Source of the DNA: Clostridia bacterium
GTDB lineage: Bacteria > Bacillota > Clostridia > Christensenellales > Aristaeellaceae
NCBI GenBank assembly: GCA_017434775.1
Contig: JAFSGG010000077.1
Location: 1 to 42,938 of the forward strand
Reading direction: 5' to 3'
Length of the DNA stretch: 42,938 nt
Shown: positions 8,263 through 31,327 of the stretch, piece after piece
Layout: every line of letters begins with the position of its first letter
How positions within the stretch are numbered: the stretch's first letter is position 1
Position numbers and translations under genes: made by a program
The notes under the pieces: generated by a model
What the model was told of the DNA's origin: nothing
Databases searched by the model: none
Seen by the model: only the letters and a program-made list of their open reading frames with translations

Positions 8263-8282
8263 AAACAAGGGGCTTGGACAAA

Positions 8283-9215: not shown

Positions 9216-9222
9216 ATAACGG

Positions 9223-9263
9223 AAGGAAAGAGAATGCGGTGAAAGCCCGTCTCTTTCCTTTTT
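9223..9263 (+). terminator. Intrinsic terminator after the HD-GYP gene
   Basis: AAGGAAAGAGA (9223-9233) pairs perfectly with TCTCTTTCCTT (9250-9260), an 11-pair stem with a 16-base loop followed by T residues. Confidence 0.8.
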
Positions 9264-9286
9264 GTTCACAGAAGGAGGAATGTGCT

Positions 9287-10048
9287 ATGCGTGCTGTTAT
9301 CAGCAGCCTGGACAAGGGAATCTATCGGATTGACGATGCGGGGGAGAGCACCTGCTATCTGGTATGTGGCGAAAAGGAAGCAGCGCTCATTGATACCCTC
9401 AACGGGCTGGAGGATCTGAACGAAATCATCAGAACCCTGACGGATCTGCCGGTGACGGTGATCAATACCCACGGCCACTGCGACCATATCGGCGGCAATA
9501 TCTTTTTCGAAAAAGCATGGATTCATCCGGCGGACGAGGCTCTGGCCCTGGAACATCTGGGGTATATGAAAGAAACCATGGAAGCCCTGGGCCGGCAGCC
9601 GGCCACGTTCCGCTTTGTGAAGGAAGGGCAGGTGTTTGACCTGGGCGGGCTTACCCTGGAAGTGGTGCCGCTGTACGGGCATACGGCAGGGTCTGTGGGC
9701 CTTTTGTGCCGGGAAAAGCGGCTGCTGTTCACTGGAGACGGCATGAATCCTCATATCTGGATGCAACTGGAGGAAAGCCTGCCCCTGGCCGTGCTCCATC
9801 AATCCCTCACGCATGTACGCCATACCCTGTGGGATGCTTTTGATTATGTCATGTACGGTCACGCTCACGGCATGGAAAAACGGGATAAAAAACTGCTGGA
9901 TCAGCTGATTGCCGGCTGCGGGGAAGTGATGGCAGGGCACACGGAAAAAGACAGCACATACACATACTTCGGCGGCATGACCTGTATGCAGCATCCCTAC
10001 GGCGATGCCGATGATCAGGTATTGGTATACCAGCCGGTGGCGAAATAA
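9287..10048 (+). CDS. Metallo-beta-lactamase-fold hydrolase (glyoxalase II-like)
   Basis: A 253-residue cytoplasmic hydrolase of the metallo-beta-lactamase fold. The full metal set is visible: H62-x-H64-x-D66-H67 in THGHCDHIGG, H132 in YGHTAGS, D151 in FTGDGM, and a His pair at 192 and 194 in YGHAHG. That layout resembles the thioesterase-like branch that includes glyoxalase II and many uncharacterised clostridial enzymes. The real substrate cannot be told. The start at 9287 has GAAGGAGGA about 8 bases upstream. It follows the HD-GYP terminator without a visible promoter and ends before a long regulatory region. Confidence 0.88.
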   Translation: MRAVISSLDKGIYRIDDAGESTCYLVCGEKEAALIDTLNGLEDLNEIIRTLTDLPVTVINTHGHCDHIGGNIFFEKAWIHPADEALALEHLGYMKETMEALGRQPATFRFVKEGQVFDLGGLTLEVVPLYGHTAGSVGLLCREKRLLFTGDGMNPHIWMQLEESLPLAVLHQSLTHVRHTLWDAFDYVMYGHAHGMEKRDKKLLDQLIAGCGEVMAGHTEKDSTYTYFGGMTCMQHPYGDADDQVLVYQPVAK

Positions 10049-10092: not shown

Positions 10093-10183
10093 TTTGTACA
10101 CAAAAAAACCAAATGAGAAAAGGGTGTTTATATTGGACAAAAAAACGCCGAAATGAGCGAAATATTTACGTTTTGTGTACAAA
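10093..10183. repeat. Inverted pair of 13-base TTTTGTGTACAAA motifs
   Basis: TTTGTACACAAAA at 10093-10105 and its exact reverse complement TTTTGTGTACAAA at 10171-10183 flank 65 bases upstream of the ABC-locus promoter. Each motif is itself nearly palindromic around GTAC, as many operators are. Possible regulator sites; no protein can be assigned. Confidence 0.5.
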
Positions 10184-10207: not shown

Positions 10208-10236
10208 TTGACAAAACTGGCGGATAACTCTATAAT
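10208..10236 (+). promoter_or_regulatory. Consensus sigma-A promoter of the ABC/DUF5696 locus
   Basis: TTGACA (10208-10213), 17 bases, TATAAT (10231-10236): a perfect match to the vegetative consensus. The gene-free stretch 10049-10368 holds the inverted motif pair, this promoter and a folded leader; nothing else was seen in it. Confidence 0.9.
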
Positions 10237-10368: not shown

Positions 10369-13300
10369 ATGCGGAAAAACTGGAAGCGGAAACTGGTCAT
10401 CCTTCTGATCGTGGTGGCTGTTATTGCCGTTATTTTCTGGCCGAACAACAAGACAGAAAATTACGCCGGCAAGTACGAAGGTGTGAATCTGAAAGAAGAT
10501 ATTTCAGAATTCAGCCGTGCAAACACCTACTCCGATTATGAAGAAAAGCATGCAAATGTGGCATCCGGTACGGAAGAAATCGTACTGGATATTGCTGCGT
10601 TTGAAGGAGATGGCCGGAAGGTTGAAATGGAAAAGCAGGTGGAAGGCCAGACCGTTATGGTACCGGGCGTACTGACGGTTGACGGCGACTATACCACCTG
10701 GAAAGTGAACGTCCCTGCGGATGGCATGTACAACATCCGCATCGAATACCTGACGGAAGCTTTCTACCTCAAGGACGAAGCTCTGGGCGAAACCGATGAC
10801 AATATGGTCATGAGCCGCGGCGTGGATATTGAACGCGCTGTGGAAATCAACGGGGAATCCCCCTTTGACGGCGCCAAGACCATTCGTTTCTCCCGTCAGT
10901 GGACGGATAAGGGCCCGGTGAAAAAGGATAACCAGGGCAATGATATCCGCCCCTCCCAGGTGGAAACCTTCGGCTACCAGACAGCTTTCTGCCGGGATGA
11001 CAGAGGCTATGTTGTGGAACCCTATAAGTTCTTCTTCAAAGCCGGTGAAAATACCCTGTCCCTGCGGGCTGAAAACGAATTTGTGAAGATCAGCAACATC
11101 ACCCTGGTGCCCGTGACCACCTTCCGGAGCTACGAAGAATATATCAGCGCTCAGCCGGCAGATGCGGTTATGACGGAAGAAGCCAAGGACTGGTGCCTGG
11201 CCATCGAAGGTGAAAGCGCACAGCTGCGTTCTTCGCCCTCTTTGTATGCCCGTTATGACCGTTCTTCCCCCGCCACCTATCCCAACGATGTGGCGCACAC
11301 TGTGCTTAACTACATCGGCGGCGATCCGTGGAACCAGGCCGGCCAGTGGATCGAATGGTCCTTTGAAGTGCCGGAAGCCGGTTATTACAATATCACCATC
11401 AAGGGCCGTCAGATGTATTCCCGCGGTTCTATTTCCTGCCGCACGCTGTATCTGGACGGCGAAGTGCCCTTTGATGCAATGGCATCCGTAGCCTTCAAGT
11501 ACAACACGGCCTGGGATCTTGTGACCCTGGCCGATGACGAAGGCACGCCCTACCGCTTCTACCTGTCGGAAGGCACCCACACCATCCGCCTGGAGGCCAC
11601 GCTGGGCGAAATGGGCCCCGTGCTCAACGAAATGGAAGACAGCATCTATCGCCTGAACCAGATTTACCGCAAGGTGCTGGTGCTGACGGGCCCCAACCCC
11701 GACCGTTACCGTGACTATAACCTCAAGGGCGTGTACCCTGATATCATCACGGCTATGGAACTGGAATCCAAGCGCCTGTACAAACTGGTGGACGACACCG
11801 TGGCCCTCACCGGCCAGATGAATGACCGCGTGGCTGTGGCCCATACCCTGGCCCTGCAGCTGGAACGGTTTGTGGAAAACAATGACCGCATTACCCAGTC
11901 TTTTGCTAACTTTAAAGATAACATCACCAGCTTTGGTACCGCTGCCCAGAACATGGCCGAAACCAAGCTGGATATTGACCAGATTTTCATTCACGGCGAA
12001 AATGTGACCCCCGAAGGCACAGCCGATAATGCCCTGACCCGTGCCTGGCACGAAATCAAGGCCTGTGCTGCTTCCTACACGGTGGATTACAACAACCTGG
12101 GCGACGTTTATGACGAAGATGCAGAAAACATCATCGAAGTGTGGATTGTGACCGGTCGCGATCAGTCCACCATCCTCAAGACCATGGTGGACGATACCTT
12201 CACCCCCATGACCCGTGAAAACGGCAATGAAATCCTGGTGAACGTAAAGCTGGTGCAGGCAGACGCCATCCTGACCGCTGTGGTAGCCGGCAACGGCCCC
12301 GACGTGGTTCTGACGGTGGACGGCTGGTTCGCTGTGAACTACGCCATGCGTAATGCAGTGGAAGACCTGACCCAGTTCGAAGACTTTGACCAAGTAGTGG
12401 GCCGCACCCGGAATGAAGACGGTACCTACAATTACGATAACGCCGTCTTCTACGAAAGCGCCCTGGAACCCCTCATGTACAACAACGGCGAATATACCGG
12501 CGTGTACGGCATGCCTGAAACCCAGCTGTTCTCCGTGCTGTTCTACCGCGAAGACGTGCTGGAAGAACTGGGCCTGGAAGTGCCCAAGACCTGGGACGAC
12601 CTGATCGCCATGCTGCCCACCATTCAGGGCAACAACATGAGCGTGGGCATTCCCTTCCCGGATATCAACAGCGTGGATATGTCCGGCTTCAACTCCCTGA
12701 TCTATCAGAACGGCGGCACCATCTATTCTGAAGATGCCAAGCGCACCCTGATCGACAGCGAAGCCGGCGTGAAGGCCTTCAAGCTCTACACCAGCTTCTA
12801 TAACGACTACGGTCTGCCCACGGTGTATGACTTTGTCAGCCGTTTCCGTTCCGGTGAAATGCCGGTGGCCGTTGGCCAGTACAGCCTGTACAACACCCTG
12901 GCTGTTTCCGCTCCCGAAATCCGCGGTCTGTGGGATTTCGGCGAATATCTGGGCACTGTGCAATACAACGAAGACGGCACCCCCATGCTGGATGAAAACG
13001 GCGAACCCGTGATCAACAACACCGTGCATTCCAACGGCGCCTGCTGTCTGATGATTGCTACCGATGATGAAACCGTCAAGCAGAATGCCTGGACGTTCAT
13101 CAAGTGGTGGGTCAGCGCAGAAACCCAGGTGCGCTTTGGCCGTGAAATGGAAAGCGTGCTGGGCTCCTCCGCCCGTTATGCCACGGCCAACCGCGTGGCC
13201 CTGCGCCAGCTGGCCTGGAGTTCCGATCAGCTGGAAGTGCTGGAAACTCAGATGGCCAAGACCAAGGGCTTCCCGGAAATCGCCGGCGGCTATTCCACCA

Positions 13301-13440
13301 CCCGTCACATGACCAACGCCATCCGCAAGGTCATCAACGAAAAGGAAGATCCCCGTGAAGTGCTGATGAACTACACCCGCACCATCAACGAAGAAATTAC
13401 CATCAAGCGCCAGCAGCTCGGCCTGCCGGTGGATGAGTGA
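10369..13440 (+). CDS. Very large membrane-tethered extracellular solute-binding protein with two beta-sandwich domains
   Basis: A 1023-residue protein, over twice the usual size of an ABC sugar-binding protein. Residues 8-24 form a single membrane helix with no lipobox Cys, so it is a signal anchor. Two beta-sandwich domains follow (about 65-250 and 270-425). Each contains the phrase type VPADGMYNIRIEYL / VPEAGYYNITIKGR seen in carbohydrate-binding modules of the galactose-binding-like fold. A helical region (about 430-570) leads to a MalE-type binding domain (about 586-1010) with GMPETQLFSVLFYRED and LGLEVPKTWDDL. It probably captures an oligosaccharide and hands it to the downstream permeases. 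The start has AGGAGAG 8 bases upstream. Codon choice is strongly biased, which suggests high expression. Confidence 0.9.
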   Translation: MRKNWKRKLVILLIVVAVIAVIFWPNNKTENYAGKYEGVNLKEDISEFSRANTYSDYEEKHANVASGTEEIVLDIAAFEGDGRKVEMEKQVEGQTVMVPGVLTVDGDYTTWKVNVPADGMYNIRIEYLTEAFYLKDEALGETDDNMVMSRGVDIERAVEINGESPFDGAKTIRFSRQWTDKGPVKKDNQGNDIRPSQVETFGYQTAFCRDDRGYVVEPYKFFFKAGENTLSLRAENEFVKISNITLVPVTTFRSYEEYISAQPADAVMTEEAKDWCLAIEGESAQLRSSPSLYARYDRSSPATYPNDVAHTVLNYIGGDPWNQAGQWIEWSFEVPEAGYYNITIKGRQMYSRGSISCRTLYLDGEVPFDAMASVAFKYNTAWDLVTLADDEGTPYRFYLSEGTHTIRLEATLGEMGPVLNEMEDSIYRLNQIYRKVLVLTGPNPDRYRDYNLKGVYPDIITAMELESKRLYKLVDDTVALTGQMNDRVAVAHTLALQLERFVENNDRITQSFANFKDNITSFGTAAQNMAETKLDIDQIFIHGENVTPEGTADNALTRAWHEIKACAASYTVDYNNLGDVYDEDAENIIEVWIVTGRDQSTILKTMVDDTFTPMTRENGNEILVNVKLVQADAILTAVVAGNGPDVVLTVDGWFAVNYAMRNAVEDLTQFEDFDQVVGRTRNEDGTYNYDNAVFYESALEPLMYNNGEYTGVYGMPETQLFSVLFYREDVLEELGLEVPKTWDDLIAMLPTIQGNNMSVGIPFPDINSVDMSGFNSLIYQNGGTIYSEDAKRTLIDSEAGVKAFKLYTSFYNDYGLPTVYDFVSRFRSGEMPVAVGQYSLYNTLAVSAPEIRGLWDFGEYLGTVQYNEDGTPMLDENGEPVINNTVHSNGACCLMIATDDETVKQNAWTFIKWWVSAETQVRFGREMESVLGSSARYATANRVALRQLAWSSDQLEVLETQMAKTKGFPEIAGGYSTTRHMTNAIRKVINEKEDPREVLMNYTRTINEEITIKRQQLGLPVDE

Positions 13441-13454
13441 GAGGAGGGAAAGCA

Positions 13455-14408
13455 ATGAGCAACATGCAGCTTGGTTCCTTTGGCCAGCGTTACTTCAATA
13501 TGAAGGCCAATAAGCTCCGGTATGGATGGGAAAAAGCGAAGCGTTCGAAAGTGTGTTACCTCTTCCTGGCGCCCTACGCCATCCTGTTCTTCACGTTCTT
13601 CATTCTTCCTATCTGTATTTCCATCTACTATAGCTTCACTTACTACGACATTCTGCAGCCTGCCCGTTTTGTAGGCCTGGAAAACTACATCAACCTGGTG
13701 CTTCAGGACGACGTTTTCCTGACGGCCGTGAAGAATACTTTCGTCATTGCCGTCATCACCGGCCCCATTGGCTACATTCTCTCGTTCATGTTCGCCTGGT
13801 TCATCAATGAATTGCCCAAGTGGCTGCGGACCATCGCTGTTGTGGTATTCTACGCGCCCAGTATTGCCGGTAACGCGTATACCATCTTCAGTATCATCTT
13901 CCGCGGCGACTACTATGGCTACCTGAACTCCATCTTGCTGGACTTTGGCTTCATCGATGCGCCCATCCTGTGGCTGTCTAACCCCCAGTACATCATGCCC
14001 GTGCTGATCATCGTTATCCTGTGGATGAGCATGGGTACCGGCTTCCTCTCTTTCGTGGCCGGTTTCCAGGGCATTGACAAGAGCATGTACGAAGCCGGTT
14101 ATGTGGACGGCGTACGCAACCGCTGGCAGGAACTGTACCACATCACTCTGCCCAGCATGAAACCCATGCTGCTGTTCGGTGCCGTTATGAGCATCACCTC
14201 CGCTTTCAACGTGTGCGACGTGCCCCGCGCTCTGGCCGGCTATCCCTCCACGGACTACGCCGCCCGCACCGTTGTGACCCACTTGTTCGACTACGGCTTC
14301 AGCCGCTTCGAAATGGGTTATGCTTCCGCTATTGCTACGCTGCTGTTCCTTGTGATGATTCTCAGTAAGAAGCTGATTGCTTCTGCTTTGGAAAAGGTAG
14401 GTACCTGA
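13455..14408 (+). CDS. Sugar ABC transporter permease, MalF/UgpA type
   Basis: A 317-residue inner-membrane permease with about six helices. The conserved EAA loop, where the ATPase docks, reads EAGYVDGVRNRWQELYHITL near residue 217. It lacks a long periplasmic insert. The start at 13455 has GAGGAGGG upstream and follows the binding-protein stop by 14 bases. With the next gene it makes the usual permease pair of the carbohydrate-uptake type 1 (CUT1) family. No ATPase gene is in the locus, so a shared MsmX-like ATPase from elsewhere is expected. The substrate is not readable from sequence; the context suggests an oligosaccharide. Confidence 0.93.
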   Translation: MSNMQLGSFGQRYFNMKANKLRYGWEKAKRSKVCYLFLAPYAILFFTFFILPICISIYYSFTYYDILQPARFVGLENYINLVLQDDVFLTAVKNTFVIAVITGPIGYILSFMFAWFINELPKWLRTIAVVVFYAPSIAGNAYTIFSIIFRGDYYGYLNSILLDFGFIDAPILWLSNPQYIMPVLIIVILWMSMGTGFLSFVAGFQGIDKSMYEAGYVDGVRNRWQELYHITLPSMKPMLLFGAVMSITSAFNVCDVPRALAGYPSTDYAARTVVTHLFDYGFSRFEMGYASAIATLLFLVMILSKKLIASALEKVGT

Positions 14409-14409
14409 T

Positions 14410-15627
14410 ATGAGTGAAAATGCTATGATCAAATCCAAAGGTACCATCCTCATTGGCAATAAGAACATTCGCGGCGAACTGCGCTGCCAGGATGACCGCG
14501 CTGCCTTCTACAATGTCAAAAACGAAGAGGTACTGGCTATCGAGTATTCCCACATCCGCGCGCTGAAGAATGTGCGCAACGGCGGCATGGCGTCCACCAT
14601 CACCATGAAGCTGGCGGATGAAAATCAGTACGAGCTCATGCTGAACACCGGCGTGAAGGTGTTCAACCACATGTATGCCGCCTGGCCCGGCAAGCCCACC
14701 CAGAAGAGCCGTGCCGACGAACTGCACCGCCTGGCCGAGCTGCGCGGCGAAAAGATCCAGAAGCCCAAGAAGCATCTGATCAAGCGCCGCCACCCCAACC
14801 GTTCCATCGGCGGCGACATCGGCGTGTATCTTCTGCTGACCATCGTGGCTGTTGCCATGGGCTTCCCGCTGGTGTTCGCCATCGGTTCCGCCCTGAAGCC
14901 GCTGGATGAATTGTTCCGCTTCCCGCCCACCATCTGGCCGCAGCATCCCACCATCGATAACTTCTCCGACCTGATCGTGACCATGGGTCAGAGCTGGGTG
15001 CCCTTCAGCCGTTACCTGCTCAACACCGTGCTGATCACCTTCCTGGGTACGTTCGGTCATCTGATCATTGCTTCCATGGCCGCTTTCGTGCTGGCCAAGT
15101 ATGATTTCCCCGGCGGACGCACCTTCTTCAATGTGGTCGTCACCGCCCTGATGTTCTCCGGTTACGTAACGGGTATTCCCAACTACGTGATCATGAACAG
15201 CGTGAATATAATCGACACCTACTGGGCACTTCTGCTGCCCGCTTTCGCAGCTCCCATCGGTTTGTTCATGATGAAGCAGTTCATGGAAAGCCTGCCCACA
15301 GCCCTGATTGAAGCCGCGCACATCGACGGCGCCGGTGAATTCCGGATCTTCTGGAGCATTGTGATGCCCAACGTGAAGCCTGCCTGGCTGACCGTGATCA
15401 TCTTCAGTGTGCAGAGCTTGTGGAACAACAGCGCCGCCACGGTCATCTATTCCGAAGCCAAGAAGACCCTGGTGTATGCTTTCCAGCAGATTCAGGCCGG
15501 CGGTATTGCCCGTACCGGTCAGGCAGCGGCCGTAACGGTTGTGGTTATGTCCGTGCCCATCCTGATCTTCATCCTGAGCCAGAGCCAGATTCTTGAGACG
15601 ATGGCCAGTTCCGGTATCAAGGACTAA
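14410..15627 (+). CDS. Carbohydrate ABC permease (MalG type) with an N-terminal GRAM/PH-like domain
   Basis: A 405-residue protein. The C-terminal 275 residues are a standard MalG-type permease with EAA motif EAAHIDGAGEFRIFWSIVMP near residue 305. The first 130 residues are an unusual cytoplasmic extension. Residues about 9-90 show a run of short strands and one helix (GTILIGNKNIRGELRC ... AFYNV ... IEYSHIRALKNV ... ITMKLADENQYELMLNT) that resembles bacterial GRAM/PH-like domains. A basic linker (KPKKHLIKRRHPNR) joins it to the first membrane helix. Such domains bind lipids or proteins, so it may couple the transporter to a membrane or regulatory partner. The extension is continuous with the permease and the ATG lies one base after the previous stop, so the fusion is not an artefact of start choice. 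Confidence 0.9.
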   Translation: MSENAMIKSKGTILIGNKNIRGELRCQDDRAAFYNVKNEEVLAIEYSHIRALKNVRNGGMASTITMKLADENQYELMLNTGVKVFNHMYAAWPGKPTQKSRADELHRLAELRGEKIQKPKKHLIKRRHPNRSIGGDIGVYLLLTIVAVAMGFPLVFAIGSALKPLDELFRFPPTIWPQHPTIDNFSDLIVTMGQSWVPFSRYLLNTVLITFLGTFGHLIIASMAAFVLAKYDFPGGRTFFNVVVTALMFSGYVTGIPNYVIMNSVNIIDTYWALLLPAFAAPIGLFMMKQFMESLPTALIEAAHIDGAGEFRIFWSIVMPNVKPAWLTVIIFSVQSLWNNSAATVIYSEAKKTLVYAFQQIQAGGIARTGQAAAVTVVVMSVPILIFILSQSQILETMASSGIKD

Positions 15628-15670
15628 GCCGGAAAACGTCATTCCATTCATTTTAGAAGGGGGAACGATT

Positions 15671-17236
15671 GTGAAAGCGAAAAACAAGCTTCTGGCAATG
15701 CTTCTGGCCATTTTGCTTCTGGTCTGTTCATGCAGCAGTGCACTGGCTGTGGATGAAGGCTTTGCCAGTACTTATACCTATAACTACGACTATTGGAGTG
15801 ATATCCGCGAATCACCCGATGCCTATCGCGTGGTGGATGTGCTCTACGGCAAGGACATCGCTCCTGTTCAGGACAATGGGGAAGACGGCGCGCTCAATGC
15901 GCCCCAGTCCATGTTTGTTCAGGGTCAGGACCTGTATGTTGTGGATTCCGGTAACAACCGCATTCTGCAGTTGACCCGGGACCAGGCCACCGGCAAATTC
16001 TCCCTGGTGCGTGAAATCAAGGAATTCACGGCCACGGACGGCACAGCCATCACCACCTTCAGCAATCCCACCGACGTGAGCGTGGACGTGGCCGGCAATA
16101 TCTACATTGCCGACAACAAAAACGAACGGATTGTGAAGCTGGACAAGGACCTGAACCTGCTGATGGTTATCACCAAGCCGGATGATACCACCTTTGACCA
16201 GAACCTTTCCTTCCTGCCCAACAAACTGGTGGTAGACACCACCGGCCGTGTATTCACCCTGGCCACCATGGTGAACAAGGGCGTTGTGAAGTTTGAAAGC
16301 GATGGTACTTTCACCGGTTATGTGGGTGCCAATAAGGTTTCCTACAGCCTGTACGATTACATCTGGAAAACTTTCTTCATGACCAAGGAACAGCGGGCGC
16401 AGCAGGAATCCTTCGTTCCCACCGAATACTGCAATATCTACATGGACGAAGATTCCTTCATCTACGCCACCAATATTTCCTTCAGCGAATATGACCTGCT
16501 GTGGGACGTGGCGCAGCCCATTCGCCGTCTGAATGCTGTGGGTAACGACATTCTCATCAAGAATGACCATTATCCCCCCATTGGCGATCTGTACTGGGAA
16601 GAAGGGTCGCAGGACTATCATGGTCCTTCCAAATTCGTGGACATCACGGTGCTGGAAAACGATATCTATGTGGGTCTTGACAGAACCAGAGGCCGCATCT
16701 TCGGTTATGATTCCCAGGGCATCATGCTGTGGGCTTTCGGTAACCAGGGCAGCAGCGAAGGTACCTTCAACAACAACGGTGCCATCGCTCTGGACCACAT
16801 GGGCCGGGATCTGCTGGTGCTGGATCAGCGCCGCGGCTGCATCACGGTTTTCGCTCCCACCGAATACGGCAACCTGATCTACGATGCTATCGGCGATTAT
16901 TCCAACGGTAAGTTCGAAGAATCTGCCGCCAAGTGGGAACTGGTGCTGGACCGGAATGCCAACTACAACCTGGCTTTCATCGGCATCGGCCGCGCACTGA
17001 TGCGTGAAGACACCTACGAAAGCTATATTGAAGCCATGGATTATTTCAAAATGGCTCAGGACCGCGATAATTACGGCCGTGCTTTCCAGCTGTTCCGTAA
17101 GATCTGGGTGGAAAGAAACATTGGCTGGATGATGATCGTGCTGGTGGTGATCATCGTCATTCCGCTGGTACTCAAGCAGATCAAAAAGAGAAAGATGGAG
17201 GTGGAAGCATATGAGCGCAACCAAGTTGCAAAGTAA
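15671..17236 (+). CDS. NHL-propeller protein with TPR-like segment and C-terminal membrane helix
   Basis: A 521-residue protein of unknown function. It has a signal peptide (LLAMLLAILLLVCSCSSALA) and then NHL-type propeller repeats at about 60-400, for example APQSMFVQGQDLYVVDSGNN and NPTDVSVDVAGNIYIADNKN. A short helical TPR-like part follows (about 415-485: GKFEESAAKWELVLDRNANY). One transmembrane helix near 490-508 and a basic tail (KQIKKRKMEVEAY) end the protein, so the propeller should face outward and be anchored at its C-terminus. NHL propellers bind proteins, glycans or RNA. The GTG start is chosen because AGAAGGGGGA lies 7 bases upstream. Its 3' end overlaps the YIP1 gene by 26 bases, a sign of tight coupling. 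Confidence 0.85.
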   Translation: MKAKNKLLAMLLAILLLVCSCSSALAVDEGFASTYTYNYDYWSDIRESPDAYRVVDVLYGKDIAPVQDNGEDGALNAPQSMFVQGQDLYVVDSGNNRILQLTRDQATGKFSLVREIKEFTATDGTAITTFSNPTDVSVDVAGNIYIADNKNERIVKLDKDLNLLMVITKPDDTTFDQNLSFLPNKLVVDTTGRVFTLATMVNKGVVKFESDGTFTGYVGANKVSYSLYDYIWKTFFMTKEQRAQQESFVPTEYCNIYMDEDSFIYATNISFSEYDLLWDVAQPIRRLNAVGNDILIKNDHYPPIGDLYWEEGSQDYHGPSKFVDITVLENDIYVGLDRTRGRIFGYDSQGIMLWAFGNQGSSEGTFNNNGAIALDHMGRDLLVLDQRRGCITVFAPTEYGNLIYDAIGDYSNGKFEESAAKWELVLDRNANYNLAFIGIGRALMREDTYESYIEAMDYFKMAQDRDNYGRAFQLFRKIWVERNIGWMMIVLVVIIVIPLVLKQIKKRKMEVEAYERNQVAK

Positions 17237-17891
17237 CGCCGCAAGCGCCCGTAAGGAAAAGTGGCAGCGCTACATTGAATCCGTCAAGTATGCCAAGTAT
17301 GTCATCTTCCATCCCTTCGATGGCTTCTGGGATCTGGTGCATGAAAAGAAAGGCTCCGTTGCCGCAGCCACCACGTTCCTGGTGCTGTTCCTGATCACCC
17401 ATGTGGTGAAGCTCATGTACACCAACTTCCAGTTCATCGCAGCCCCTCTGCAGTATGTGAATGTGCTGGAACAGGCGCTTTCCCTGCTTCTGCCTTTCAT
17501 GATCCTGTGTCTGGCCAACTGGAGCCTGACCACCCTGTTTGACGGCAAAGGCCGTTTCCGGGATATCTACATTGCCATGTGCTATGCGCTGGTGCCCTTT
17601 GTGTTCATCCAGCTGCCCCTGGTGTTCATCAGTAACATCATCGCCTTTGACGAAGCGGCTTTCTACACGGTGCTCATGAGCGTATCGGTGGTATGGTCTG
17701 TGGCGCTGGTGTTCACCGGCTTGATGGAAGTGCACGATTACAGCCCCGGCAAGACGCTGACCTTCCTGGTGTTCACCATCGTTGGCGCACTGATCATCAT
17801 TTTCCTGGTGCTTGTGTTCTTCAGCCTGCTGAGCGATGCATTGAGCTTCTTCATCTCCCTGTATCGCGAGATTGCATTCCGCTTGTATTAA
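17211..17891 (+). CDS. YIP1-family integral membrane protein
   Basis: A 226-residue polytopic membrane protein with about five helices in the Yip1 layout. The N-terminal helix region contains KYAKYVIFHPFDGFWDLVHE, a phrase typical of bacterial members next to carbohydrate transporters, and the family core shows CYALVPFVFIQLPLVFI. Bacterial YIP1 proteins have no established function; eukaryotic relatives act in membrane traffic with Rab proteins, and that role should not be carried over. The start has GGAGGTGG about 8 bases upstream and lies inside the end of the NHL gene. It is followed after 15 bases by the DUF5696 gene. I infer that NHL, YIP1 and DUF5696 proteins form one complex with the transporter. 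Confidence 0.85.
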   Translation: MSATKLQSNAASARKEKWQRYIESVKYAKYVIFHPFDGFWDLVHEKKGSVAAATTFLVLFLITHVVKLMYTNFQFIAAPLQYVNVLEQALSLLLPFMILCLANWSLTTLFDGKGRFRDIYIAMCYALVPFVFIQLPLVFISNIIAFDEAAFYTVLMSVSVVWSVALVFTGLMEVHDYSPGKTLTFLVFTIVGALIIIFLVLVFFSLLSDALSFFISLYREIAFRLY

Positions 17892-17906
17892 GGAGGGAGT
17901 AAGAAA

Positions 17907-20528
17907 ATGAAAAAGAAAAAGCTCATTTTGCGCTTGCTTCCGTGGATCATTACGCTGGCTGTGATCGCCGCTCTGGTTATCTTCGTGGGTATCCCGATGT
18001 ATTCCCAGACGGAAGAGGAAAACCTTTATGAACCCACCGTGGTTTCCTATGACGGCGATACCAAAGCCAAGCTGGTGCTTTCCAACGAATCCCTCACTTT
18101 CGAAATGGATCCTGTGACCACCCAGTTCAAAGTGGTGGATAACACGACCGGTATGGAATGGCTGTCCAACCCTGTGACCACACTGGATGAAGCCAAGAAG
18201 GATCCCTACGCCAAAACGTATGCTCAGCAGTATTCCCTTTTGTCCACCCTGCTGCTGCATTCCCGTTCCACCGGTGAAGAAAAGGCGTGGAGCAATTACG
18301 AATATTCCATTGCCAACGGCAATTACACAATCGAATTTGTGAAAGCCGGCGAAGGCGCTGAAACCGATGAAATCCATGTGATCTATGCCGTGGGTAACAT
18401 CGAAAAGGAATACATGATTCCTCAGGCCTGGACCAAGGAACGCTACGATGCTTATACCAAGGCGATGAAGGGCAAGGCCAAGAAGCAGGTGCAGTCCAAC
18501 TACACCAAGCAGGGTCCCTCCACGCTGGCCAAGCTGGACAGCACGGATGCAGACCGTGAAAAGAAGGCTGAACTGCTGGCGCTGTATCCCGCCCTGGAAA
18601 CCCAGGAACTTTATATCCTCAAGGATGTAAAGGATGAAATGAAGGCGAACATTCAGACGTATCTGACGGAAGTTGGCTACAATGAAGAAGAATTCGCTAT
18701 CGACCAGCAGTGGGTTGCCCAGAAGAAAGAAACCAATAAGGAACTGTTCAACGTAACCATCATCTACCGCCTGGAAGGCAATGACCTGGTGGTGGAAGTG
18801 CCTTACGACCAGATCCGTTTCCGCACAATGGCAACGGTGACCGGTATCACCCTGCTGCCCGCCTTCGGCGCCGGCGGCCTGGATGAAGAAGGCTATATGT
18901 TCGTTCCCGAAGGCGGCGGCGGTCTGATTGAATTCAACAACGCCAAGGTCGGTGCCGACAACTACTATGCGGACGTGTATGGCTGGGACTATTCCATCGA
19001 ACGTAAGGAATACATCAACGAAACCCGCGCCACCTTCCCTGTATTCGGCGTTGCCAAGGGAGACGCTTCCTTCCTGTGCATCATGGAAGGCAACAATTCC
19101 TTCGGCAGCATCTATGCGGAAAACAGCAAGTACAACAGCAGCTACAATGTGATCCGCGCCAAGTATCATGTGATGCACTGCGGCCAGTACAACGTTTCCA
19201 ACAAAACGGCCACGCAGGTGTTCATGTTTGAAAAGGAAATGCCCGAAGGCGGCATCGTACATCGCTATCGTTTCCTCAACAGCGGCAATTACGCCGATAT
19301 GGCCACGGCTTACGGCGAATACCTGCGTGAAAATGAAATGATGAGCCAGGCCAAGGCTTCCGAAGATGTACCCGTGTCTGTGGAACTGATCGGTGCCATT
19401 GACAAGACGGTTGTGAAGATGGGCCTGCCCATTGACTCCGTTGTGGCGACCACCACCTTTGCCCAAGCCAAGGATATCATGACGGAAATGAAGGATTCCG
19501 GTGTGGAAAACCTGAACATCCGTATGAGCGGCTGGGCCAACGGCGGCATCACCCAGCAGGTGTTCACCAGCGTGAATATCCTCAACGAGCTGGGCGGCCG
19601 CGACGCCATGGTGGATCTGATTGCCGCTGCCAAAGAAGACGGCATCAATCTCTACTTCGACGGTATTTCCTGCTTCGCTTATGACAGCGGCATGCTGGAA
19701 GGCTTCACCCCCTTTGGCGATGCTGCCCGCTATGCCACCCGCGAACAGGTGTACATCGAGCCCTATGACGTGGTTTATTACAAGCCCGTCGATTGGCTGG
19801 ATCCCTTCTATCTGGTGCAGCCCCAGTACGCACAGAAGTGCACCACCAACCTGATCAACGCTCTTGATGACGTGGATGCAGACGGTGTTGCTTTCCGTGA
19901 TCTGGGCAACCTTCTCAGCGGCGATTTGAACTCCAAAAACCTGGTGACCCGTGAAAAGGTCAAGGCTATGAACATTCAGAGCCTGCAGGAAGCCAAGGCT
20001 GCCGATCAGAAGGTCATGATCAAGATGGGTAACGATTATGCGCTGCCCTATGTGGATATGATCACCGATATGGATCTGTCCGGTACCAACTATACCATCA
20101 TCGACCGGCACATTCCTTTCTATCAGATCGCGCTGCACGGCATGAAGGATTACACCGGCAAGCCCATCAACCTTTCCGGTGAATACGTGACCGAATTCCT
20201 CAAGTGCGTGGAATACGGCAGCGGCCTGAACTTCACTTTCATGGCTGAAAATGCCTGGGTGCTGCAGGATACCACTCATTCTTCTCTCTTTGGTGCTGCT
20301 TACGACGCCTGGAAGGGCGACGCTACGCAGATGATCGTCGATTATCAGGCCAAGATGAAGGGCCTGAACCAGCAGCGTATCGTGTCTCACGAAATGCTGA
20401 CGGATGACGTGGTCGTAACCGGCTACGAAGACGGAACCAAGGTATATGTCAACTATGCGGAAATCGAATATAGCGGCAACGGCGTGGTGGTTGCACCCCG
20501 CAGTTACCTCGTGGAAAGGGGGCAGTGA
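17907..20528 (+). CDS. DUF5696-type membrane-anchored protein, candidate glycoside hydrolase
   Basis: An 873-residue protein that I match to DUF5696 by its sequence style and its neighbours. Residues 8-32 form one membrane anchor. A beta-rich N-terminal part (about 45-510) contains LVLSNESLTFEMDPVTTQF, as in the sandwich domain before the barrel in GH31/36/101-type enzymes. Residues about 511-760 look like a TIM barrel (TTTFAQAKDIMTEMKDSGV, then LNIRMSGW, GINLYFDGI and a DGVAFRDLGN strand with D665). A small C-terminal strand domain (about 830-873) carries YEDGTKVYVNYAEIEY, again as in glycosidases. No catalytic residues are proven. Placed between permeases, it could trim the oligosaccharide at the membrane. 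A strong AAGGAGGGAG precedes the start. Confidence 0.82.
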   Translation: MKKKKLILRLLPWIITLAVIAALVIFVGIPMYSQTEEENLYEPTVVSYDGDTKAKLVLSNESLTFEMDPVTTQFKVVDNTTGMEWLSNPVTTLDEAKKDPYAKTYAQQYSLLSTLLLHSRSTGEEKAWSNYEYSIANGNYTIEFVKAGEGAETDEIHVIYAVGNIEKEYMIPQAWTKERYDAYTKAMKGKAKKQVQSNYTKQGPSTLAKLDSTDADREKKAELLALYPALETQELYILKDVKDEMKANIQTYLTEVGYNEEEFAIDQQWVAQKKETNKELFNVTIIYRLEGNDLVVEVPYDQIRFRTMATVTGITLLPAFGAGGLDEEGYMFVPEGGGGLIEFNNAKVGADNYYADVYGWDYSIERKEYINETRATFPVFGVAKGDASFLCIMEGNNSFGSIYAENSKYNSSYNVIRAKYHVMHCGQYNVSNKTATQVFMFEKEMPEGGIVHRYRFLNSGNYADMATAYGEYLRENEMMSQAKASEDVPVSVELIGAIDKTVVKMGLPIDSVVATTTFAQAKDIMTEMKDSGVENLNIRMSGWANGGITQQVFTSVNILNELGGRDAMVDLIAAAKEDGINLYFDGISCFAYDSGMLEGFTPFGDAARYATREQVYIEPYDVVYYKPVDWLDPFYLVQPQYAQKCTTNLINALDDVDADGVAFRDLGNLLSGDLNSKNLVTREKVKAMNIQSLQEAKAADQKVMIKMGNDYALPYVDMITDMDLSGTNYTIIDRHIPFYQIALHGMKDYTGKPINLSGEYVTEFLKCVEYGSGLNFTFMAENAWVLQDTTHSSLFGAAYDAWKGDATQMIVDYQAKMKGLNQQRIVSHEMLTDDVVVTGYEDGTKVYVNYAEIEYSGNGVVVAPRSYLVERGQ

Positions 20529-20531
20529 TCC

Positions 20532-21512
20532 ATGGCAAGAGAAAAAGGTCTTCATGACCATTGGTATGACGGTATTGTAGATGCGTTCAGAATCTACATC
20601 CCCGGCAACAGCACTTACCATACCATGCGCGCCCGCAATGCCCGCACCGGTACCTGGTTCATCCTTCCTTTCATCATTGGTTTCCTGCTGTTCATGCTCA
20701 AGCCCATCATGGAATCCTTCTCCATGAGTCTCAGCGACGTGGTGCTGCTTCCCGGCCAGGGCTATCATCAGACCCCGGTGGGCTTCAGAAACTACCACAC
20801 CGCCCTTGCCGTTGACCCCGAATTCAATAAATACCTGGTGGAAGAAATCGGTCAGATGGCCATCAACACCATTGCTACCCTGGTGCTGAGCTTCGTCATC
20901 GCCGTGATCCTCAATCAGGAATTCAAGGGCCGCACCCTGTGCCGTGCCATCTTCTTCCTGCCGGTTATCCTTTCTTCCGGCGTGCTGCCCGGCATTGAAC
21001 ACCAGAACGAATTCTACGACATGATGGGCGGCCTGGCCGAGTCCATGGCTGAATCTTCCGGCATGGATATTTCGGCCACATTGCAGGACCTGCTGGGTGC
21101 ATCCGGCGTGGCCGGCAGTGTGTTCGAAGTGGTGTTTACCATGATCGATTCCATCTACGATATCGTCATGGCTTCCGGTATCCAGATCATCGTATTCCTC
21201 TCCGGTCTGCAGTCCATTTCTCCCTCTCTGTATGAAGCGGCGGATGTGGAAGGCTGCTCCGGCTGGGAATCCTTCTGGAAGATCACGTTCCCCATGGTCA
21301 GCCCCCTGCTGCTGGTGAACTGCATTTACACCATCATCGACTTCTTCATGAAGAACGATAACCGCGTGATGGAACTGATCTATCAGGTCACCTATCAGGA
21401 TGCGAAGTTCGGTGTTTCTTCTGCTATGAGCTGGATCTACTTCGGCGTTGCTCTGGCCTTCATTGGCGTCAGCAGCTTCATTATTTCGAGGATGGTGAAG
21501 TCTTATGAGTAA
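20532..21512 (+). CDS. Second sugar ABC permease, MalF type, with an extracellular insert
   Basis: A 326-residue permease of the CUT1 family with about six helices. The EAA loop reads EAADVEGCSGWESFWKITFP near residue 235. Compared with the 13455 permease it has an extra segment of about 45 residues (about 155-200, GIEHQNEFYDMMGGLAESMA) between membrane helices, probably exposed outside and perhaps contacting a different binding protein. The start has GAAAGGGGG about 10 bases upstream and lies 3 bases after the DUF5696 stop. Its end overlaps the next permease by 8 bases. The two pairs in one locus point to two importers or two assembly states. Confidence 0.92.
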   Translation: MAREKGLHDHWYDGIVDAFRIYIPGNSTYHTMRARNARTGTWFILPFIIGFLLFMLKPIMESFSMSLSDVVLLPGQGYHQTPVGFRNYHTALAVDPEFNKYLVEEIGQMAINTIATLVLSFVIAVILNQEFKGRTLCRAIFFLPVILSSGVLPGIEHQNEFYDMMGGLAESMAESSGMDISATLQDLLGASGVAGSVFEVVFTMIDSIYDIVMASGIQIIVFLSGLQSISPSLYEAADVEGCSGWESFWKITFPMVSPLLLVNCIYTIIDFFMKNDNRVMELIYQVTYQDAKFGVSSAMSWIYFGVALAFIGVSSFIISRMVKSYE

Positions 21513-22515
21513 GAGTGAAACCGTATTTATCGGCAAGAACAAAAGCTTCTGGGAACGCAACCGCCGCAGCGAAGGCTATTTGCTGAAGCGTAAGGTGCGC
21601 AGCATTGCAGGCTCTGTCATTCGTGCCCTGCTTCTGTTCGGCCTTTGCTTCATGATCATCCAGCCCATCCTGATGCGCATCACCACCGGTTTCATGCCGG
21701 AAAAGGATCTGTATGATACCACGGTGGTCATGATGCCCCGCAGCGTTACCCTGGATAACTATAACCTGGTGTTCCGGCTGACGCGCTTCCCCAATTCCAT
21801 GGTCAACACCCTGTGGACGTCCCTGCTGATGTCCGTACTGCAGGTTATCAGCTGTACGCTGGTGGCCTACGGCTTTGCCCGGTATGAATTCCCGCTGAAG
21901 AAGCTGTGGTTTGCCTGCGTGGTTATGCTGATCATCATTCCGCCTACCACCATCCAGACGGCATTGTACATGAACTTTGTAAACTTCGATATTTTCGAAA
22001 TTTTCAAAGTGACAACAGGGAAGACAGTCAACCTGCGTACCTCTTTCATTCCCTATGCCATCATGTGCCTGACCTGCATGGGCCTCAAGAACGGCTTGTA
22101 CATCTATATGCTGCGCCAGTATTTCAAGGGCGTGCCCAAGAGCCTGGAAGAAGCAGCGTATATCGACGGCTGCGGCACCATGCATACCTTCACCAAGATC
22201 ATGCTGCCCGATGCTATGCCCACCATCGCCAGCTGCTTCCTGTTTGCGTTTGTGTGGCAGTGGACGGACGTGTTCTACTCCCGCAACTTCCTCAGCAGCT
22301 ATTCCATCTATGCTGTGGAACTGAGCTCCATCGTCAGCCGCATGAGCCGTGAACTGGCACCTCCCGGCCAGCCGGCCGTCATCGTATCCAACGGCCGCTC
22401 TCAGCAGCTGATCTCCATCGGCGTGCTGGTGTGCTGCATCCCGCTGATCATTCTGTACTGCTTCACCCAGAAGACTTTCGTTAAGTCTCTGGCCATGACG
22501 GGCAGTAAGGAATAA
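21505..22515 (+). CDS. Second carbohydrate ABC permease, MalG type
   Basis: A 336-residue CUT1 permease with about six helices and EAA motif EAAYIDGCGTMHTFTKIMLP near residue 213. It lacks the GRAM/PH-like extension of the 14410 permease, but has a basic start of about 30 residues (NKSFWERNRRSEGYLLKRKV). The start overlaps the upstream permease end and has GAGGATGGTGAAG before it. It is the last gene before the internal promoter of the second binding protein. No terminator is visible at its end, so the main transcript may continue into the binding-protein gene. Confidence 0.92.
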   Translation: MSKSETVFIGKNKSFWERNRRSEGYLLKRKVRSIAGSVIRALLLFGLCFMIIQPILMRITTGFMPEKDLYDTTVVMMPRSVTLDNYNLVFRLTRFPNSMVNTLWTSLLMSVLQVISCTLVAYGFARYEFPLKKLWFACVVMLIIIPPTTIQTALYMNFVNFDIFEIFKVTTGKTVNLRTSFIPYAIMCLTCMGLKNGLYIYMLRQYFKGVPKSLEEAAYIDGCGTMHTFTKIMLPDAMPTIASCFLFAFVWQWTDVFYSRNFLSSYSIYAVELSSIVSRMSRELAPPGQPAVIVSNGRSQQLISIGVLVCCIPLIILYCFTQKTFVKSLAMTGSKE

Positions 22516-22543
22516 AAAATCAGCAAATATACACAAAAATGTC

Positions 22544-22572
22544 TTGCCAAGCTGCAAAATCTGGTGTATAAT
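22544..22572 (+). promoter_or_regulatory. Internal sigma-A promoter for the second binding protein
   Basis: TTGCCA (22544-22549), 17 bases, TATAAT (22567-22572). It gives the last gene of the locus its own strong transcription. Confidence 0.8.
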
Positions 22573-22573
22573 A

Positions 22574-22651
22574 AGCCAAGAAGTAGCAGCTTGGCTGCAT
22601 TTTCCCATCGTAACTATATGAATGACTTGCGTGAAAACGAATCATTCATAT
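22574..22651 (+). other. Two leader hairpins before the second binding-protein gene
   Basis: AGCCAAG (22574-22580) pairs with CTTGGCT (22590-22596) right at the expected transcript start. ATATGAATGA (22616-22625) pairs perfectly with TCATTCATAT (22642-22651) over a 16-base loop, ending about 12 bases before the ribosome site. They may protect the mRNA end, as for other abundant binding proteins, or act as operators. Confidence 0.5.
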
Positions 22652-22677
22652 GGAAAATAAAAAGGAGGAACTCCAAA

Positions 22678-24036
22678 ATGAAGAAACTGGTTGCTCTGCT
22701 TCTGGCCGTGCTGATGCTCTCCGTGAGCTTCGCCGCTCTGGCCGAAGTGCCCGAAGGCTATCCTGAAATCAACGAAGCTATGATTCAGGCCGAACCCAAA
22801 ACCATCACCATTTATGACTACTGGTCTGGTGACGGCGCCCGCGTTGCTGAACCCAATGACGAACAGCAGGCTCAGTATGACTATCGCGATTGGATCGAAG
22901 CCACCTACAACGTGAAGATCGAACAGAAGCAGGGTGGCGACTGGGGCACCTGCGCTCAGGAAATGATCGACTTCTACGGCGCTGCTGATGGCTCCTATCG
23001 CGCCTACATCATCGAACCCGGCAAGGTCGGTTCTCTGGTTGCCAGCGGCTACGCTGCTTCCTGGGGCGACTATGACTTCTCCAACGAAAAGTGGAATCAG
23101 GCTACCATCGCTGCCTGGTCCAAGAACGGCGAAGCTTACGGCGTGTCCACCGGTGCTACCGAACCCCGCGGCTGCCTGTACTTCAACAAGCGCGTTCTTG
23201 AAGAAGCTGGCATCGACTGGAACACCATTTATGACATGCAGGCTGAAGGCACCTGGACCTGGGACGTGTTCGAAGGCATGCTGAAGCAGATCACCAAGGA
23301 CGTCGATAACGATGGCGTTAACGACATCTGGGGTATGCTGGGCTCCGGCGACGATATGTACGTTCTGTCCGTGTTCTCCAACAAGGGCTCCTTCTTCGAT
23401 TTCGACGAAAATGGCAAGCTCTATCCCTCTATGAACAGCCAGGAAACCATCGACGCTCTGACCTGGGCCAAGAGCCTGATGGACAACTACTTCTACAAGC
23501 AGCCCGCTGACGGCAACTGGGACTACTACAAGGCTGCTTGGAAGCAGGGCTTCTGCGGCTTCTATGTATACCAGACCTACGGCGGCTTCAATGACAACAG
23601 CGAAATGGCTGACATGGAAGACGAATGGGGCTGCGTTGCTTGGCCCGTGCCCAAGCCCGTCTCCGAAGGCTATGACTACATCCACGTGATGAGCGAAAAC
23701 ACCACCCTGATCCCCAACGTCTACACCGCTGAAGAAGTTCAGATGATCGCTTTCTTCATCGACCTGTGGACCAACCCCACCCCCGGCTATGACGATGAAT
23801 TCGCCTGGATCGGCAACAAGTACAACTTCACCGACGAACGCGCTGTGGACGAAACCTATGCCATGCTGCGTGAAGCTGATCATGCCCGCGACAACAAGGT
23901 CGTGCTGCTGGGCACCCAGAACGACGTGCTGGGCTCCTCCCTGCTGTGGGGCATCGCCGGTGGCGATCCCGCTGCTCTGATCGAAGCTGGTATGCCCGCT
24001 TGGCAGGCTCTGTGCGACACCTATAACGCTAAGTAA
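22678..24036 (+). CDS. Second extracellular solute-binding protein, highly expressed
   Basis: A 452-residue carbohydrate ABC binding protein of the MalE-like type. It starts with a signal peptide (MKKLVALLLAVLMLSVSFAA, cleavage after ALA) and has no lipobox Cys, so it may be freely secreted or held by the partner proteins. The binding-protein fold shows in KTITIYDYWSGDG, GCLYFNKRVLEEAGIDWNTI and the C-terminal WGIAGGDPAALIEAG. Codon choice is extremely biased (AAC, TTC, GAC, GGC, CTG), stronger than in the genes around it, which points to very high expression. It has its own promoter and folded leader, a strong AAAGGAGGAA site and a strong terminator. It is the probable partner of the 20532/21505 permeases. 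Confidence 0.92.
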   Translation: MKKLVALLLAVLMLSVSFAALAEVPEGYPEINEAMIQAEPKTITIYDYWSGDGARVAEPNDEQQAQYDYRDWIEATYNVKIEQKQGGDWGTCAQEMIDFYGAADGSYRAYIIEPGKVGSLVASGYAASWGDYDFSNEKWNQATIAAWSKNGEAYGVSTGATEPRGCLYFNKRVLEEAGIDWNTIYDMQAEGTWTWDVFEGMLKQITKDVDNDGVNDIWGMLGSGDDMYVLSVFSNKGSFFDFDENGKLYPSMNSQETIDALTWAKSLMDNYFYKQPADGNWDYYKAAWKQGFCGFYVYQTYGGFNDNSEMADMEDEWGCVAWPVPKPVSEGYDYIHVMSENTTLIPNVYTAEEVQMIAFFIDLWTNPTPGYDDEFAWIGNKYNFTDERAVDETYAMLREADHARDNKVVLLGTQNDVLGSSLLWGIAGGDPAALIEAGMPAWQALCDTYNAK

Positions 24037-24076
24037 GGTTCGCCGGCTGAATATCAGTCAAAGCTAAATAAAAATG

Positions 24077-24111
24077 GGCCGCTGTGTGCAAGCACAGCGG
24101 TCTTTTCTTTT
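24077..24111 (+). terminator. Intrinsic terminator ending the ABC locus
   Basis: GGCCGCTGTG, loop TGCAAG, CACAGCGGTC (10 pairs, one wobble), followed by TTTTCTTTT. Confidence 0.9.
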
Positions 24112-31309: not shown

Positions 31310-31327
31310 GAAAGAGAGGAAAGAATT

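Follow-up and report, generated by a model that had tools for sequence, protein, structure and literature searches.

A conserved nine-gene cassette that links YIP1, NHL and DUF5696 proteins to CUT1-type sugar permeases in Clostridia and other Firmicutes

In a metagenome-assembled genome (MAG) of a Clostridia bacterium of the Aristaeellaceae (GenBank assembly GCA_017434775.1; 2.26 Mb, 77 % complete), contig JAFSGG010000077.1 carries a locus in which two sugar-binding proteins and four permeases are encoded together with an NHL-propeller protein, a YIP1-family protein and a DUF5696 protein. The window analysed here is that entire contig, 42,938 nucleotides long, and its ends bound what can be seen of the cassette's neighbourhood, genes farther out not being visible. 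As the first-pass annotation of this DNA had described, the nine open reading frames between 10369 and 24036 all run in one direction, on the + strand, each with Pfam or profile matches, and gene ends overlap at NHL/YIP1 and at PermC/PermD. With starts corrected by ribosome-binding sites (PermA probably at ATG 13455, NHL at GTG 15671 and SBP2 at ATG 22678), the genes are as follows.

10369..13440, + strand: SBP1, about 1000 amino acids (aa), with an N-terminal hydrophobic anchor, a CBM35-like region, a linker and a C-terminal sugar-binding protein (SBP) part (Pfam, profile matches)
13455..14408, + strand: PermA, CUT1-type permease, its frame open from GTG 13437 (BPD_transp_1; EAA loop)
14410..15627, + strand: PermB, CUT1-type permease with an N-terminal extension of about 130 aa (BPD_transp_1 at 222-394)
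15671..17236, + strand: NHL-propeller and TPR protein with a C-terminal membrane helix (NHL in Pfam; profile matches; hydropathy)
17211..17891, + strand: YIP1-family integral membrane protein (Pfam Yip1)
17907..20528, + strand: DUF5696 protein with an N-terminal anchor, a homologue of the glycoside hydrolase (GH) superfamily GH129/GH101 (PF18952; profile comparison)
20532..21512, + strand: PermC, CUT1-type permease (BPD_transp_1), directly 3' of DUF5696 in relatives
21505..22515, + strand: PermD, CUT1-type permease (BPD_transp_1; EAA pattern)
22678..24036, + strand: SBP2, second sugar-binding protein (family profile match to AbnE 6rjy)

Conservation of this gene set was followed with PF18952, the DUF5696 family, in 150 related genomes and in a phylum-wide sample of 398, both of which include the window's own genome. 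Twelve named loci and 120 fetched regions (a subset of the listed matches, picked by their DUF5696 match) made up 132 loci, of which 122 have a full-length DUF5696 (at least 200 bits against its own profile); removal of four duplicates left 118 distinct loci, and ten regions (L114-L123) had been fetched for short or weak DUF5696 matches. The joint neighbourhood search that the first-pass annotation had proposed ties the YIP1 clade to full-length DUF5696: of the 115 full-length DUF5696 places in the 150 genomes, 111 have YIP1 no more than 3.5 kb away and, in the converse test, which is independent of choosing by DUF5696, DUF5696 stands beside 111 of 112 YIP1 places. The single YIP1 place that lacks DUF5696 (G023:C51:2-178) and one of the DUF5696 places that lack YIP1 (G016:C196, from base 174) sit at contig starts, and the remaining three DUF5696 exceptions are partial matches. 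Across the phylum, leaving the window's own genome aside, full-length DUF5696 and strong YIP1 matches occur in one identical set of 40 genomes; the cassette is present in only 41 of the 398, the window's own included. Weak YIP1 matches of about 30-48 bits in eight other phylum genomes, and once more in G499, were read as other YIP1 proteins, and two genomes (G424 and G446) gave partial DUF5696 matches barely above the cut-off with no YIP1 match listed. At most three DUF5696 and seven YIP1 candidates were scored per genome in this sample, which makes its copy numbers lower bounds.

The remaining genes follow the same pattern. NHL occurs in the same 57 of the 150 genomes as YIP1, SBP1 occurs in those 57 plus G018, G043 and G056, and in the first set 37 of the 48 distinct loci have all nine families on the same strand. 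Among the 118 loci, the gene immediately 5' of DUF5696 is YIP1 or an NHL-YIP1 fusion in 116 and the gene immediately 3' is PermC in 113, the median gap between DUF5696 and PermC is -1 nucleotide, and gaps within the cassette are short or overlapping. Where adjacency fails, the cause is overlap in gene calling, the end of a contig (L142) or, in L111, a rearrangement that puts PermC-PermD before SBP1. YIP1 accompanies DUF5696 in 118 of 118 loci and PermC does so in 117, the one locus without it being L142; the possibility, raised in the first-pass annotation, that the three unassigned genes might occur mostly without sugar permeases is therefore not borne out. Automatic calling recognized SBP1 in 101, PermA in 102, PermB in 105, PermD in 113 and SBP2 in 77 of the 118 loci, counts that are lowered by contig ends, by separated modules and by the looser similarity of SBP2. 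Outside the cassette there is no conserved flanking gene set, the commonest flank cluster occurring in 13 of 118 loci; the core keeps its order across distant families while the flanks vary, and that order recurs even where DUF5696 identity is only 20-25 %, far beyond chance. Distance matrices of seven genes correlate at 0.88-0.97 in the 94 of 118 loci that have all seven, with DUF5696 diverging fastest (median distance 0.74) and PermA slowest (0.49), and since several genomes contribute more than one cassette, this co-inheritance does not reflect species descent alone. Short and partial DUF5696 matches were excluded from the cassette counts: none of the ten partial places that were entered (74-162 bits; weaker listed places were not entered) has YIP1 nearby, and L114-L121 are without the cassette, L118 having just two permease-like genes. 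In-frame stops reported in SBP1 of several genomes proved, in the two checked (L104 and L106), to be the gene's own end. These comparisons provide good support for a conserved nine-gene system, which also occurs, as the first-pass annotation had said of similar neighbours, in a Paenibacillus and in other Firmicutes, and is plasmid-borne in Butyrivibrio fibrisolvens and Paenibacillus cellulosilyticus. The accompanying suggestion that the set is conserved and uncharacterized agrees with a literature search (most subscription papers lay outside it) that found no description of it. Searches for DUF5696 or DUF6259, and for a link among Paenibacillus, YIP1, NHL repeats and ABC (ATP-binding cassette) transporters, found no papers, and those for YIP1-family proteins with ABC transporter permeases found nothing relevant as judged by title and the start of the abstract.

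Protein fusion gives a further line of evidence. The YIP1 protein scores 55.3 bits against Pfam Yip1 (cut-off 28.6) and belongs to that family; by sequence it has no homologue of solved structure (best E 0.48). Its neighbour has NHL repeats in Pfam, and its profile matches designed and natural NHL propellers as well as TPR structures, with a C-terminal hydrophobic segment in 114 of 116 NHL proteins (this and the other such segments are by simple hydropathy). The two are fused as one protein in 34 of the 118 loci, mostly of 670-835 aa, with one of 594 at a contig start, and on a DUF5696 tree (116 rows, 113 with a known state; a quick tree with long branches, hence approximate) the split or fused state changes eight times, at least six of the changes being forced by starred branches. 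Each permease pair with a binding protein does resemble a normal importer, as it would if two ordinary CUT1 importers lay by chance beside unrelated membrane genes; that explanation is highly improbable, being contradicted by linkage, gene order, fusion and co-inheritance, and was rejected on those grounds.

Copy numbers suggest that the cassette consists of two modules, [SBP1-PermA-PermB] and [NHL-YIP1-DUF5696-PermC-PermD], the second of which is sometimes amplified. With cut-offs of 1e-60 and 1e-20, SBP1 was present in all 16 genomes tested, and in five of them (families f81 and f95) the YIP1 module exceeds SBP1, by 10 to 4 in G207 and in G273, 8 to 4 in G299, 10 to 6 in G186 and 17 to at most 10 in G226. 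Of the eleven others, ten are one-to-one and G538 has two against three, two of the three being pieces on one contig.

The transport genes themselves have the look of CUT1 importers. Pfam finds BPD_transp_1 in all four permeases, and in the fetched loci the strict EAA-loop pattern is present in 100 of 101 PermA, 98 of 103 PermB, 78 of 116 PermC and 103 of 112 PermD proteins, the 40 commonest PermC 8-mers all retaining E....[DE]G. SBP1 matches SBP_bac_8/SBP_bac_1 in Pfam and, in its C-terminal half (554-859), the profile of Lin1841 (5ysb, 3e-32) and other sugar-binding proteins. Its N-terminal half matches the cycloisomaltooligosaccharide glucanotransferase (CITase) 5x7g at 8.2e-10 over 291-390, in a segment that we take to be a CBM35 carbohydrate-binding module; the Pfam score for CBM_35 is below the curated cut-off (24.4 versus 28 bits). 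An N-terminal hydrophobic segment is found in 91 of 102 SBP1 proteins. SBP2 is without a Pfam match above cut-off, and its family profile finds sugar-binding proteins of known structure, with the arabino-oligosaccharide-binding AbnE at the top (6rjy, 5.4e-29). As side observations, the N-terminal extension of PermB (window 14410-14800) comes in two unrelated-looking flavours in relatives, one soluble and GRAM/PH-like by eye and the other with hydrophobic segments, and is absent in L010 and L013; and in L128 (10500-16700) several tandem SBP2-like frames, two of them short, follow the cassette.

As had been claimed at the outset, no transporter ATPase is encoded within 10369-24036 (Pfam scan), and one that could serve the permeases is available elsewhere: the window MAG has five OB_MalK matches on other contigs, the weakest barely above cut-off. 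Two EAA-loop permeases, a sugar-binding protein and a MalK/MsmX-type ATPase in the genome, the marks of a CUT1 importer, were thus all found. An OB_MalK ATPase is present in 24 of 24 cassette genomes tested, and in the 11 that have exactly one match, that ATPase would have to serve several importers. Multitask ATPases are established in Firmicutes, and incomplete importers of this kind have been described (PMC7658222). In the Paenibacillus cellulosilyticus plasmid, ugpC lies directly 5' of the cassette; a local ATPase as a regular part of the cassette was rejected, as proteins at least 45 % identical to the plasmid UgpC were found, within the stretches fetched, in only two of the 118 loci (L110 and L112). 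Downstream of the cassette on the same plasmid (L168, 3774-26040) lie several LLM flavin-dependent oxidoreductases together with an aldo/keto reductase, neighbours reminiscent of sugar-sulfonate degradation.

The DUF5696 protein is the part with a possible catalytic role. In the window it scores 604.7 bits against PF18952, its sole Pfam match at E up to 1, with none to GH129 or GH101, and among the 29 window proteins scanned with Pfam (threshold 0.001 outside the locus) no glycoside hydrolase family match was found. The first-pass claim that no recognized glycoside hydrolase is encoded accordingly stands by Pfam name, and falls in that DUF5696 is itself a remote GH129/GH101 relative. Searched against the PDB, a 49-sequence DUF5696 profile matches DagB (3.5e-12), a GH129-like 3,6-anhydro-D-galactosidase of Zobellia, and NagBb of GH129 (1.6e-10), with no others below 0.1. 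Seven short DUF5696-matching proteins (L114 and L116-L121; 565-659 aa) all match DUF5696, DUF6259 and GH101 in Pfam, and three of them GH129; a profile of eight such short proteins, a GH129-like set, matches NagBb at 6.8e-175, and hhalign places that set against DUF5696 at 2.6e-43 over 519 columns. A region homologous to the GH129 catalytic region is thus present in DUF5696, and the catalytic domains of NagBb and GH101 are alike according to a review (PMC8106489). On profile evidence, DUF5696 is a distant protein of the GH129/GH101 superfamily, and judged by its own residues it is outside GH129 proper. In addition to its linkage with importers, it differs from GH129 in having about 200 extra residues before the aligned region and a membrane anchor, an N-terminal hydrophobic segment being found in 112 of 118 DUF5696 proteins. 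Separately, the DUF5696 proteins of L077 (7734-12449) and L078 (7576-12381), of 1572 and 1602 aa, have an internal insert and a long C-terminal repeat series, by eye like the protein's own C-terminal part.

DUF5696 may be catalytic or non-catalytic. In local and global alignments alike, NagBb Asp435 corresponds to window Asp665, and NagBb Glu478 (the first SSEE glutamate, chain numbering) to window Lys706; we take Asp435 to be the nucleophile and Glu478 the acid/base of GH129. Activity is uncertain because Lys706 stands where GH129 has its acid/base Glu. Defining the window's clade as the 49 loci with DUF5696 above 980 bits, and the other 69 as outside it, 45 of the 49 clade members have Lys or Arg at the acid/base position, where 28 of the 69 outside have Glu or Asp; of those 69, only 29 retain the Asp435 equivalent and 40 lack it. 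Together with the true hydrolases that flanking genes often supply in relatives, these changes make it a substantial, though lesser, possibility that DUF5696 is a pseudo-glycosidase serving as a glycan receptor or gate, so that the system would capture and import without trimming while external enzymes cut. On the other side, Asp665 is present in 49 of 49 clade members; Asp361, Asp733 and Glu769 are widely conserved; and at position 707 Glu occurs in 26 of the 49 clade members (Met in the window), such that a one-residue alignment shift could restore an acid in some members, the window's not among them. Moreover, DagB is active although, of the two catalytic residues of NagBb, its authors report just Asp435 as conserved in it; they proposed a separate family (PMC5698469).

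Clues to the substrate come from the flanks, in which 95 and 86 representatives of 248 clusters near cassettes were searched with Pfam (mechanical open reading frames, some perhaps not genes). The matches listed, 25 families of 121 and of 123, include GH43, GH42, GH10, GH130, GH39, GH30, GH29, GH31, GH26, GH2, GH67, GH115 and pectic acid lyase along with many unrelated genes, and GH3 is also among the flanks of relatives. GH10 xylanase genes, sought with three GH10 sequences from the clade's own loci, lie near 18 of the 118 cassettes; of the 49 loci in the window's clade 16 have one, as against two of the 69 elsewhere and none of the 25 other-clade loci from related genomes. The enrichment (Fisher 1e-5 against the 69 and 7e-4 against the 25) is uncorrected for shared ancestry, and is optimistic because neighbouring loci share ancestry and the queries came from this clade. 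Lachnospiraceae flanks include GH10-GH3-GH67 (L011) and GH10, a GDSL esterase and GH3 (L010, Butyrivibrio), the B. fibrisolvens D1 locus has GH43 and a two-component pair, and the six GH10 places of the window MAG are all on other contigs than the window. The best guess is that the window's clade takes up xylan fragments and that other clades would have other substrates. The same flanks bear on an unlikely alternative, namely that the system acts on or senses the cell's own surface glycan, with import serving recycling or signalling. A constant gene set, in single copy in many genomes, gives it a house-keeping look, NHL and TPR parts are often protein-binding, and the window's neighbours are not sugar genes; but it is present in just 41 of 398 phylum genomes, one fragmented genome has as many as 17 YIP1 matches, and the GH10, GH43, GH3, GH67, GH115, GH26, GH130 and pectic acid lyase genes beside relatives fit plant-polymer foraging.

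Taken together, the cassette probably encodes a membrane-tethered system for surface glycan capture and import, driven by an ATPase encoded elsewhere. The anchored SBP1, with its CBM35-like region, and the anchored DUF5696 would engage a plant-polysaccharide fragment at the membrane, most likely xylan-derived in the window's clade, and DUF5696 would either cleave an alpha-linked unit from the fragment or hold it as a receptor. SBP1 would then pass the product to a PermA/PermB importer and SBP2 to a PermC/PermD importer, both powered by an MsmX/UgpC-type ATPase from elsewhere in the genome. NHL and YIP1 would work as a single unit, with the propeller outside the cell attached to the membrane domain, and this unit probably organizes DUF5696 and the permeases in the membrane; it is plausible that the cassette proteins form one physical machine. 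Several observations weigh against this account: the proteins that SBP1 and SBP2 resemble bind different sugars; OB_MalK is common anyway, in 10 of 14 control genomes, so that the data show only that a motor is available; the window cassette has no adjoining xylanase, and 33 of 49 clade loci are without a nearby GH10; the GH129 acid/base position is Lys706 in the window protein, and outside the clade 40 of 69 DUF5696 proteins lack the Asp435 equivalent; and the excess of the NHL-YIP1-DUF5696-PermC-PermD module over SBP1 in some genomes, along with recognition of SBP2 in just 77 of 118 loci, means that a strict nine-part complex is not universal. A more far-reaching version, offered tentatively and with considerable doubt, is a new class of transporter, a dual ABC importer whose extra subunits are obligate: an NHL-YIP1 membrane scaffold would couple a catalytically altered GH129-fold receptor to both importers, and the receptor, scaffold and PermC-PermD module would be amplified per substrate while SBP1-PermA-PermB is shared.

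The locus can be set against several known systems. With CUT1 importers that use a multitask ATPase of the MsmX/MsmK type (YtcPQ-YteP, AraNPQ, GanSPQ) it shares two EAA-loop permeases, an SBP and an ATPase gene outside the locus, elsewhere in the genome; it differs in its two importers per locus, linked NHL-YIP1 and DUF5696, and anchored SBP1 of about 1000 aa, and no account of CUT1 importers with such extra parts was found in the literature searched, most subscription papers being outside that search. Like the Gram-positive polysaccharide utilization loci, it has an ABC importer and, in relatives, GH10, GH43, GH3 and GH67 neighbours, whereas its conserved core carries no assigned hydrolase and dedicated hydrolases are absent from the window's locus. 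It has a Yip1 domain in common with the eukaryotic Yip1/Rab-interacting membrane proteins, but the bacterial clade goes together with an NHL propeller and with sugar permeases. With NagBb and DagB, both matched by its profile in the PDB, DUF5696 shares the Asp435 equivalent.

Regulatory-like sites frame the cassette.

10093..10183, no strand assigned: operator-like inverted pair 5' of the promoter-like site; the 12-mer at 10093-10104 recurs at 10172-10183 as its exact reverse complement
10208..10236, + strand: sigma-70/sigma-A-type promoter-like site TTGACA-17-TATAAT (12/12 consensus matches)
22544..22572, + strand: promoter-like site upstream of SBP2 (11/12 matches)
24076..24103, + strand: intrinsic terminator-like hairpin and T tract after SBP2 (12-pair stem, 7 GC)

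With its promoter-like site upstream and hairpin after SBP2, the cassette reads as a single operon. The promoter scan overall found nine sites versus 11.0 in shuffles, no enrichment, and only the quality of the 10208-10236 site counts; terminator-like sites in the region number 16 versus 13.9 in shuffles, the 24076-24103 hairpin having the most pairs. The 12-mer occurs twice within one mismatch in the whole window versus 0.17 expected, and four of 100 shuffles also reach two. Beyond these sites, an HD-domain protein and a metallo-beta-lactamase-fold protein are encoded upstream (window 8274-10048), both of which also lie upstream of the cassette in L064 and the second also in L062 and L075; downstream is a Na/H-exchanger family protein, and a tandem of three M42 aminopeptidase-family genes occupies 29271-32320.

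The cassette provides a genetic context for two families, the bacterial YIP1 clade and DUF5696, both of which are tied to sugar uptake in Firmicutes from gut, rumen and soil. The plasmid-borne cassettes of B. fibrisolvens and P. cellulosilyticus mean that there are named organisms carrying it. Should these proteins act jointly, there is a form of carbohydrate ABC importer that has additional subunits in the membrane and at the surface, and hemicellulose-fragment uptake in cassette-bearing bacteria would need re-annotation.

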